The notes under the pieces were generated by a model. The model saw only the letters and a list, made by a program, of their open reading frames with translations, did not search any database and was not told where the DNA came from. Shown piece after piece: positions 26,717 to 30,182 of a stretch of DNA of 37,203 nucleotides (positions are counted from its first letter, which is position 1; every line of letters begins with the position of its first letter). The translations under genes and the position numbers were made by a program. This DNA is from Nocardioidaceae bacterium (lineage in GTDB: Bacteria > Actinomycetota > Actinomycetes > Propionibacteriales > Nocardioidaceae), in the NCBI GenBank assembly GCA_013696015.1, contig JACCZI010000031.1, positions 1 to 37,203 of the forward strand, written 5' to 3'.

Positions 26717-27000
26717 GCCGCAACAGCAGTGACGGGACGAGTAGCCGCGGACTCTGCACCAGCAGCGACCTGGGGACGGTGGGAGCCCAGGGGTGCGCCG
26801 CAGCGAAGATCACCCCCGAGCCGCTGGCAGAACGGCCGGCGCGTGACCGGCTCACTAGACCCAGCAGCGGCAGCCTCGAGAGGGCAGCGGACGTCGCGAG
26901 CGGCGCCGCGGTCAAGGAGGGTGGTACCGCGGGAGGCGTCACCGGCGCCGAGCGTCCCTCCGCAGCGTGAGCTCCTGAGCCGGAGCGCTGACGGAGGACC
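26717..27000 (+). promoter_or_regulatory. Isoleucine T-box riboswitch (translational type)
   Basis: Leader RNA that senses uncharged tRNA-Ile. The conserved T-box AGGGTGGTACCGCG is at 26918-26931; its TGGT pairs with the free tRNA 3' end. A short Stem I is seen: the hairpin CTGGGGACGGTGGGAGCCCAG region (26770-26790) and the arms GGGGTG/CACCCC (26790-26795, 26811-26816). The specifier ATC (isoleucine) lies at 26809-26811 in GAAGATCACC. No terminator with a U tract follows. Instead GTCCCTCCGCAGC (26954-26966) can pair with GCTGACGGAGGAC (26987-26999), which holds the Shine-Dalgarno of ileS. This indicates control of translation, as in other actinobacterial ileS T-boxes: tRNA binding would free the Shine-Dalgarno. 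Confidence 0.9.
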
Positions 27001-27002
27001 CG

Positions 27003-30000
27003 ATGACCACCGCAGAGACCGCTCCCGGCCAGGGCGTCGGCTACCGGCCGGTACCGCCGCAGATCGACCTGCCCCAGCTCGAGCGCGACATCCTGGCCCT
27101 GTGGGCCGAGCAGGACACCTTCGCCCGCACACTGCAGCAGACCGCCGGTGCTCGCCGCTGGACGTTCTACGAAGGGCCCCCGACCGCCAACGGCGTCCCG
27201 GGCGTCCATCACGTCGAGGCCCGGGTCCTGAAGGACGTGTTCCCGCGTCTCAAGACCATGCAGGGCTACCACGTCGACCGCAAGGCCGGTTGGGACTGCC
27301 AGGGCCTGCACGTCGAGGTCGGCGTCGAGAAGGAGCTCGGCCTGTCCGGCAAGCAGCAGATCGAGGCGTACGGCATCGCTGCGTTCAACGCGCGCTGCCG
27401 TGCGTCGGTCGAGCGGCACGTCGACGCGTTCGAGGAGATGACCGAGCGGATGGCCTACTGGGTCGACATGTCCGCGGCGTACCGGACGATGGACCCCGCC
27501 TACATCGACAGTGTGTGGTGGTCGTTGAAGCAGATCTTCGACAAAGGGCTGCTCGTCGAGGACCAGCGCATCAGCCCGTACTGTCCCCGCTGCGAGACCG
27601 CGCTGTCCGACCATGAGCTCGGCCAGCCGGGTGCGTACGAAACGGTCGCCGATCCGTCGGTCTACGTCCGGCTGCCGCTGACCTCGGGTCCGCTGGCCGG
27701 GCGGGCTGCGCTGCTGGTGTGGACGACGACACCGTGGACACTGGTGTCCAACACCGCCGTGGCGGTGCATCCCGACGTCGAGTACACCGTGGTCACCGAC
27801 GGCTCGCAACGCCTCGTCGTCGCCGAACCCTTGCGTGAGCAGGTGCTGGGCGATCGCTGGGACGTCGAGCAGCGGCTGCGCGGTGTCGACATGGAGCGTT
27901 GGACGTACGAGCGCCCGTTCGACCTGGTCGACATTCCCGCACCCGCCCACTACGTCGTGCTGGCCACCTACGTCACGACCGCGGACGGCACCGGGCTGGT
28001 GCATCAGGCCCCCGCATTCGGGGCCGACGACCTCGCCGTGGCCCGGGCCTACGGGCTGCCCGTGGTCAACCCGGTCCGAGCGGACGGGCACTTCGCGGAC
28101 GAGGTGCCACTGGTCGGCGGGCAGTTCTTCAAACATGCCGACACCGACCTGATCAACGACCTGGACCGTCGCGGTCGGCTGCTGCGACATGAGACCTACG
28201 AGCACTCCTACCCGCATTGCTGGCGATGCCACACGCCGCTGATGTACTACGCCATGCCGTCGTGGTACATCCGGACGACGCAGGTCAAGGATGCGTTGCT
28301 CCGCGAGAACGAACGCACGGCGTGGTACCCGGACACGATCAAGTGGGGTCGTTACGGGGACTGGCTGCACAACAACGTCGACTGGTCGCTGTCACGATCG
28401 CGTTACTGGGGCACGCCGCTGCCGATCTGGCGCTGCCCCGACGGGCATCTGACGTGCGTCGGGTCACGCACCGAGCTCGCAGGCTTGTCGGGGACCATGC
28501 TCGACGACCCCCATCGGCCGTTCGTCGACGAGGTGACGTTTTCGTGCCCGGAGTGCGGCGAGCCGGCGCGACGTGTGCCCGAGCTCATCGATGCGTGGTA
28601 CGACTCCGGCTCGATGCCCTTTGCTCAGTGGGGCTACCCGACCCTCGACGGATCGGAGGACGAGCTGGACCGGGCGTACCCCGCGCAGTTCATCTGCGAG
28701 GCGATCGACCAGACCCGCGGCTGGTTCTACTCGCTGATGGCGATCGGAACGCTGGTGTTCGACCGGTCCGCGTACGAGAACGTCGTCTGCGTCGGCCACA
28801 TCGTCGCGGAGGACGGCCGCAAGATGTCGAAGCACCTCGGCAACATCCTGGAGCCGATGCCGCTGATGGAGCGCCATGGGGCGGACGCGCTGCGGTGGTT
28901 CATGGCCTGTGCCGGGTCCCCGTGGTCATCCCGCCGTGTCGGACACACTGTGTTGCAGGAGATCGTGCGCAAGGTGCTGCTGACGTACTGGAACACGGTG
29001 GCGTTCCACGTTCTCTACGCCCGCACCGCGGGCTGGACGCCCGCCTCCGGTGCAGCACCCCCCGTCGGTCAACGCCCGGTGCTCGATCGCTGGCTGGCCG
29101 GGCGCACCTCGGTGCTCGTGCGCGAGGTGACCGCGGCGATGGAGGGCTTCGACACCCAGCGGGCGGGCAGCCTGCTCGCCGACTTCATCGACGACCTGTC
29201 GAACTGGTACGTGCGTCGGTCGCGACGGCGCTTCTGGAACGGCGACGTCGCCGCACTCGCCACGCTGCACGAGACGGTGGAGGTGCTGACCCGCCTGCTG
29301 GCACCGCTCACGCCGTTCGTGACCGAACGGGTGTGGCAGGACGCGGTGCGTTGTGTGGACCCGGCTGCTGCGGACTCGGTTCACCTGGCGACCTGGCCCG
29401 AGCCGGACGAGACCCTGGTCGACGACGAGCTCGACGCCCAGGTACGGCTGGCCCGTCGCCTGGTCGAGCTCGGACGAGCCGCGCGGGCGGAGGCCAAGGT
29501 GCGCAACCGGCAACCGCTGCGCCGGGCGCTGATCGGCTCCAGCGGGTGGACGGCGCTGTCCCCCGAGCTGCGCGCGGACGTCGCGGCCGAGCTCAACGTC
29601 GGCTCGGTGGAGTCACTGGCCGCGGCCGACGGGGACCTCGTCGAGCACTCCGCCAAAGGCAACTATCGAGCGCTCGGCCGGCGCTTCGGGAAGCAGACGC
29701 CGACGGTCGCTGCCGCCATCGCCGCCGCCGACGCGGGGGCGCTGGCCGCCGGGCTGACCGCCGGCCGGGCGAGCGTCGAGGTCGACGGTCAACAGGTCGC
29801 GCTGATCCCGGAGGAGGTCATCGTCTCCGAGCGTCCGCGCGAGGGCTGGTCGGTGGTGAACGAGCACGGCGAGACCGTGGCCCTCGACCTCGAGATGACT
29901 CCGGATCTGGTCCGTGCCGGCCTCGCTCGCGAAGCGGTCCGGCTGGTCCAGGAGGCCCGCAAGACAAGTGGTTTCGACGTCAGTGACCGGATCGAGCTGT

Positions 30001-30182
30001 GGTGGGAAGCCGACGGCGAGCTGGCGCAGGCACTCACCGAACATGAGCAGCTGCTTGCGGACGAGGTGCTCGCCACCGCGGTCACCGTCGGCCGGCCGAA
30101 CGACGCCTCGTTGCCCGCTCACGGCGACACCGATCTCCACCTCACGTTATGGATTCGTCGCCCGGCCACACCGGCGGAATGA
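27003..30182 (+). CDS. ileS: Isoleucyl-tRNA synthetase (IleRS2 type)
   Basis: Charges tRNA-Ile. The 1059-residue class Ia synthetase is of the long, eukaryote-like IleRS2 type usual in actinobacteria. The first signature, normally HxGH, reads GVHH at residues 67-70 (NGVPGVHHVEAR). The second signature KMSKH is at 607-611. The editing domain is present (about 180-390; VWTTTPWTLVSNTA, DGTGLVHQAPAFGADD). The WYIRTTQ, SRSRYWGTPLPIW and CEAIDQTRGWFYSLM segments and the anticodon-binding domain (FIDDLSNWYVRRSRRRFW) follow. The C-terminal extension ends near RRPATPAE. ATG at 27003 has GGAGG 6 nt upstream, which is sequestered by the T-box leader. The altered signature is discussed under findings. 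Confidence 0.98.
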   Translation: MTTAETAPGQGVGYRPVPPQIDLPQLERDILALWAEQDTFARTLQQTAGARRWTFYEGPPTANGVPGVHHVEARVLKDVFPRLKTMQGYHVDRKAGWDCQGLHVEVGVEKELGLSGKQQIEAYGIAAFNARCRASVERHVDAFEEMTERMAYWVDMSAAYRTMDPAYIDSVWWSLKQIFDKGLLVEDQRISPYCPRCETALSDHELGQPGAYETVADPSVYVRLPLTSGPLAGRAALLVWTTTPWTLVSNTAVAVHPDVEYTVVTDGSQRLVVAEPLREQVLGDRWDVEQRLRGVDMERWTYERPFDLVDIPAPAHYVVLATYVTTADGTGLVHQAPAFGADDLAVARAYGLPVVNPVRADGHFADEVPLVGGQFFKHADTDLINDLDRRGRLLRHETYEHSYPHCWRCHTPLMYYAMPSWYIRTTQVKDALLRENERTAWYPDTIKWGRYGDWLHNNVDWSLSRSRYWGTPLPIWRCPDGHLTCVGSRTELAGLSGTMLDDPHRPFVDEVTFSCPECGEPARRVPELIDAWYDSGSMPFAQWGYPTLDGSEDELDRAYPAQFICEAIDQTRGWFYSLMAIGTLVFDRSAYENVVCVGHIVAEDGRKMSKHLGNILEPMPLMERHGADALRWFMACAGSPWSSRRVGHTVLQEIVRKVLLTYWNTVAFHVLYARTAGWTPASGAAPPVGQRPVLDRWLAGRTSVLVREVTAAMEGFDTQRAGSLLADFIDDLSNWYVRRSRRRFWNGDVAALATLHETVEVLTRLLAPLTPFVTERVWQDAVRCVDPAAADSVHLATWPEPDETLVDDELDAQVRLARRLVELGRAARAEAKVRNRQPLRRALIGSSGWTALSPELRADVAAELNVGSVESLAAADGDLVEHSAKGNYRALGRRFGKQTPTVAAAIAAADAGALAAGLTAGRASVEVDGQQVALIPEEVIVSERPREGWSVVNEHGETVALDLEMTPDLVRAGLAREAVRLVQEARKTSGFDVSDRIELWWEADGELAQALTEHEQLLADEVLATAVTVGRPNDASLPAHGDTDLHLTLWIRRPATPAE

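Follow-up and report, generated by a model that had tools for sequence, protein, structure and literature searches.

The ileS gene of this Nocardioidaceae genome raises the question of whether an isoleucyl-tRNA synthetase (IleRS) that carries GVHH where class I enzymes have their HxGH signature is the working enzyme of the cell, and what such a signature would mean for mupirocin. We followed up a sequence-only reading of the window, here the whole analysed stretch of DNA with a length of 37,203 nucleotides, and compared the enzyme and its gene with those of relatives.

The window enzyme and its GVHH signature

The open reading frame at 27003-30182 on the forward strand is stop-free and encodes an intact protein of 1059 amino acids, identified as type 2 IleRS by TIGR00392, PDB, Pfam and AlphaFold/Foldseek. 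It matches TIGR00392 with 855.8 bits against a cut-off of 621.4. Its top PDB matches are T. thermophilus IleRS (1ile) and P. megaterium IleRS2, and bacterial IleRS2 chains score 824-858 bits vs at most 321 bits for IleRS1. The Pfam domains are tRNA-synt_1, Anticodon_1 and DUF5915, the last of which (residues 860-1046) is the C-terminal domain of the IleRS2 type. The AlphaFold model (pLDDT 88.8) has the IleRS2 structures 8c8v and 8c8w as top Foldseek matches and aligns over 1055 columns to full-length 8c8v. Full length, nearer to IleRS2 than to IleRS1 and with an IleRS2-type C-terminal domain, the window enzyme is an IleRS2.

The sequence-only reading had claimed that GVHH replaces the class I HxGH signature at residues 67-70, and both the translation and a gapless alignment to IleRS2 confirmed it. 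The codons are GGC GTC CAT CAC at 27201-27212 on the forward strand, inside the segment 27195-27230 to which that reading had drawn attention, and the translation around them is EGPPTANGVPGVHHVEARV. The alignment with IleRS2 that it had proposed as a check (8c8w, 1ile) placed GVHH opposite the HVGH of both the T. thermophilus and P. megaterium enzymes, with letters identical to those of the engineered GVHH mutant 8c8w. With Gly in the first place, His in the third and His70 in the fourth, the sequence falls into the G/AXHH class.

The 80 nearest relatives in genome_contigs, which include Nocardioidaceae MAGs, Kribbella, Aeromicrobium and Streptomyces, all read GXHH at the same place, and chance or a base-call or assembly error is therefore excluded. 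A strict DNA pattern further found GXHH in at least 188 of the 397 genomes sampled across the phylum. On these two counts the motif is ordinary in this branch, and GXHH appears to be the usual state of actinobacterial IleRS2 around this genome. The second class I signature, the KMSKS loop, reads KMSKH (28821-28835, forward strand), as in all actinobacterial GXHH relatives whose read reaches the site.

Some genomes of the same family and order carry a second kind of IleRS at about 40% identity, which has HYGH and in most cases KMSKS (L123-L135, in G007, G008, G014, G017, G020, G025, G027, G030, G032, G033, G035, G036 and G038). In some of these genomes it takes the place of the GXHH type, in others both kinds occur, so that family membership alone does not predict the motif.

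The GWDCQGLH motif and the fourth signature histidine

The neighbouring motif at residues 96-103 (27288-27311, forward strand) reads GWDCQGLH in the window enzyme and GWDCHGLP in nearly all relatives. By DNA pattern, GWDCQGLH is present in the window's genome and 12 others, which makes 13 of the 346 family genomes and seven genera; among the 397 phylum genomes it was found only in the window's own. The window enzyme thus appears, as judged from these patterns, to belong to a small uncultured lineage with a changed neighbouring motif.

Moreover, the fourth signature His is gone in five of the 13 QGLH genomes, which read GVHS (G013, G492 and G002), GTHS (G490) or GTHT (G003). None of the 105 rows with WDCHGLPV shows such a loss, and in none of the 397 phylum genomes does a non-His codon starting with A, G or T follow GxH. 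Two GxH(S/T) matches of an order-wide pattern search were rejected as not IleRS. The Ser (AGC) and Thr (ACC) codons at the fourth place are each two base changes from His, on which ground we rejected sequencing or assembly error. The ileS genes without the fourth His are full length and intact and retain the flanking genes and the T-box; no second ileS passes the cut-off in these genomes (completeness 97% for G013 and 92% for G003). Other class I synthetases also vary the fourth place, such as TrpRS with TIGN and some TyrRS with Asn; the loss is therefore unusual for IleRS, and not without parallel in the class. We found no description of QGLH with loss of the fourth His in the literature searched, and a literature search on the HGLP motif gave nothing relevant. 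The combination is real in the sequences and appears to be new here, and it is the unusual part of this locus, which the sequence-only reading had missed.

A further position varies in the same set. His599 (28797-28799, forward strand) aligns with His582 of P. megaterium IleRS2, whose counterpart in IleRS1, Phe586, stacks on the adenine (PMC10485003). Position 599 is Leu in 10 of 12 QGLH rows, while the window enzyme and its congener keep His.

We built a careful ileS tree without the motif columns. On it the loss of the fourth His takes three changes, all within the QGLH set; grouping all enzymes that lack this His into one clade fits poorly (AU p 0.03), and one clade for all QGLH enzymes stays acceptable (p 0.23). 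This tree replaced a quick one, which had missed better trees and gave another answer on the clade test. Since the quick tree proved unreliable, the number of losses is taken as moderate evidence only. The HGLP enzyme L167 (G016) groups with the QGLH pair that includes the window enzyme at 96/95 support, and a reversion, a second gain of QGLH or a transfer is therefore possible.

Alignment to the yeast enzyme indicates where the changed motif lies. Residue 103 of the window enzyme aligns with yeast Pro90 at an offset of 13, the same offset that puts residue 67 on yeast His54 of HIGH, and residues 102-103 correspond to yeast Val89-Pro90. Val89 and Pro90 bind reveromycin A in the pocket of the tRNA CCA end above the adenylate, and the P90A change weakened this binding more than 10-fold (PMC7955072). 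With residue 103 at the wall of the tRNA CCA end, the change thus lies in the active-site cavity.

Three explanations of the QGLH change were weighed. First, it may be compensatory, in that His103, together with Gln100, would make the fourth signature His dispensable and lineages could then lose it. We regard this as possible, though somewhat short of probable. The loss is confined to QGLH rows, occurs three times on the motif-free tree with a single clade disfavoured, and requires two base changes for Ser as well as for Thr. The enzymes concerned have full length, conserved synteny and a T-box leader, with no other IleRS found in their genomes; residue 103 also lies, by its match to yeast Pro90, in a cavity lined by HIGH and KMSKS (PMC7955072). 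However, the AU value of 0.03 is weak and varies with the tree search, the group was chosen after the pattern had been seen, and thirteen related genomes are few. The loss of His599 tracks the QGLH set as well and could be the true partner. A fuller version, in which the fourth His is replaced in function by His103 at the wall of the tRNA CCA end, the single-His GxHS and GxHT enzymes serve as the cell's only IleRS and the window enzyme is an intermediate with both, is more tentative still.

Second, QGLH could be a separate adaptation of the CCA-end pocket, either to a reveromycin-type inhibitor of the tRNA site or for better transfer, with the loss of the fourth His as a side effect. Residues 102-103 do correspond to the reveromycin A site of yeast, and in LeuRS the counterpart of residue 102 binds the phosphate of A76 (PMC7955072), but bacterial IleRS is reported to be insensitive to reveromycin A already and neither a producer nor exposure is known for these MAGs, which leaves this explanation doubtful. 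Third, QGLH and GxHS/GxHT may be neutral drift at a site where the GXHH swap had already lowered the constraint, which we also think unlikely. Swapped signatures are tolerated in GXHH lineages, and His599 is also lost in the HGLP rows L108 and L110, and L099, another HGLP row, has Met there. Against drift, all 13 genomes, from seven genera, share an identical QGLH, and with very few exceptions the other GXHH enzymes retain both HGLP and the fourth His.

Should the QGLH set hold, it would offer natural class I enzymes that still work although their signature, commonly taught to be essential, is worn to one His. Which signature residues a class I enzyme needs, and compensation by a second motif, would then become directly testable.

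Gene context and the T-box leader

To one side of the window ileS lie lspA, rluD and dnaE, to the other divIVA, sepF, ftsZ, ftsQ and a Mur ligase gene, and the order ftsZ-sepF-divIVA-ileS-lspA is the conserved order of the division cluster. The arrangement divIVA-ileS-lspA with a T-box before ileS recurs in those relatives whose stretch is long enough, including S. griseus. The sequence-only reading had regarded the gene as the only ileS in view and likely the housekeeping copy. The search for a second ileS that it had proposed was run on the MAG and on G001, a 95%-complete congener, with one ileS in each. In the whole MAG there is one match above the TIGR00392 cut-off, although a second ileS could have been missed at its completeness of 84.6%; the other matches are below the cut-off and consistent with other class I enzymes, LeuRS and ValRS for example. 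Because of the conserved gene order, the Ile T-box leader and the single ileS in both the MAG and its congener, the gene is, as far as sequence can tell, the housekeeping copy, and both statements of that reading stand.

The T-box that it had ascribed to ileS was located on the forward strand. Stem I, with an AUC (Ile) specifier at 26809-26811, lies at 26720-26827 and matches RF00230 with 32.4 bits (E 1.5e-5), found by an E-value threshold and below the gathering score of 93; at the gathering threshold, Rfam matches in the window include no T-box. The low score is perhaps due to a model centred on the Firmicutes form. The T-box element or anti-sequestrator, AGGGUGGUACCGCG / AAGGAGGGUGGUACCGCG, is placed at 26914-26959 and is also present upstream of ileS in relatives. 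A predicted hairpin at 26957-26999, with a z of only -0.79, pairs the Shine-Dalgarno GGAGG (26993-26997), from which the T-box would be translational. A mechanism of this kind, with a hairpin hiding the Shine-Dalgarno sequence, was described for actinobacterial ileS in 2005 (PMC1262725). The window leader resembles that form in having an Ile specifier and a T-box element followed by the sequestering hairpin, without notable difference (PMC1262725). With stem I in addition, it appears to fit a translational ileS T-box. The same genome has a further T-box-like leader (G000:C151:14626-14809; L087, L140; 38 bits, below gathering), which precedes a class II synthetase gene of the Asp/Lys/Asn kind.

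It is highly improbable that the window ileS was acquired as a resistance gene of the MupA/MupB type or is a decaying paralogue: the gene does match NF000257 (MupA, 718 bits) and NF000258 (MupB, 690 bits), but the cut-offs of 1900 lie far above these scores, which together with the gene context rule out an acquired gene, and the reading frame has no stops and is the sole ileS, in housekeeping order behind a T-box.

Mupirocin and comparison with known enzymes

The explanation we prefer, and consider very probable, is that of a single T-box-regulated housekeeping IleRS2 in which the signature His stands third instead of first, in an organism resistant at the target and with a site further rebuilt in its lineage. 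Gene identity, motif and context are shown by the sequence, and the mechanism of the swap is carried over from published work on relatives. The catalytic His of HxGH would have moved to the third place (GVHH), where it would do the job of the first, with the tip of the signature shifted, as in the IleRS2 of P. megaterium, T. thermophilus and D. radiodurans. The side chain of this third His would clash with mupirocin, and the organism should therefore resist at the target level. The lineage would have further rebuilt the site from HGLP to QGLH at residues 100-103, and sister genera would have lost the fourth signature His and the adenine-side His599.

The swap itself is already known. The link to very high mupirocin resistance in a subset of IleRS2, which the sequence-only reading had mentioned, is published as the GXHH motif (PMC10485003). 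In the work of Brkic et al. 2023, 86 of 163 bacterial IleRS2 had G/AXHH and no IleRS1 did, and the motif was linked to mupirocin Ki values in the mM range (PMC10485003). Swaps in both directions altered the Ki about 175- to 823-fold, a shift of 2-3 orders of magnitude at modest catalytic cost (PMC10485003). The Ki was 1.08 µM with HVGH vs 460 µM swapped in P. megaterium IleRS2, 0.20 vs 35 µM in T. thermophilus IleRS2, and 6600 µM with ALHH vs 8.1 µM with HVGH in D. radiodurans IleRS2 (PMC10485003). Likewise, S. griseus IleRS2 has a Ki of 10 mM, and E. coli with this enzyme grows on 100 µM mupirocin (PMC4861432).

By analogy with these enzymes, we infer that target-level resistance is the best prediction for this organism. 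The Ki depends on the background, the T. thermophilus GVHH mutant reaching only 35 µM, and the QGLH change in the active-site cavity could shift mupirocin binding either way. The claim that the strain is intrinsically resistant thus stands as an expectation from the target. It does not stand as a feature of the strain: since the housekeeping ileS carries a GXHH motif general to the clade, resistance would be a clade property and the ordinary actinobacterial state, S. griseus included. Such resistance would come with the cell's own housekeeping IleRS, and it would be wrong to count it as acquired. Residues 566-567 correspond to a site at which S. aureus IleRS1 contacts mupirocin through a Gly; the window enzyme has EA there, as S. 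griseus does, and EA or EG is scattered in L159 (G491), L099 and L119.

Among the known enzymes, S. griseus IleRS2 (SgIleRS, L068) shares with the window enzyme the clade, 67% identity, GXHH, KMSKH, the gene order with T-box and the housekeeping role, but it has GWDCHGLP instead of GWDCQGLH and GAHH, with Ala instead of Val as second residue. The GVHH mutants of P. megaterium and T. thermophilus IleRS2, whose Ki rose about 430- and 175-fold (PMC10485003), have the same four letters; however, they are engineered in a natural background of HVGH, HGLP and KMSKS, whereas GVHH in the window is natural. D. radiodurans IleRS2 (ALHH, Ki 6.6 mM; PMC10485003) is also a natural enzyme with a non-canonical motif and His in the third place, but its first residue is Ala rather than Gly and it comes from another phylum.
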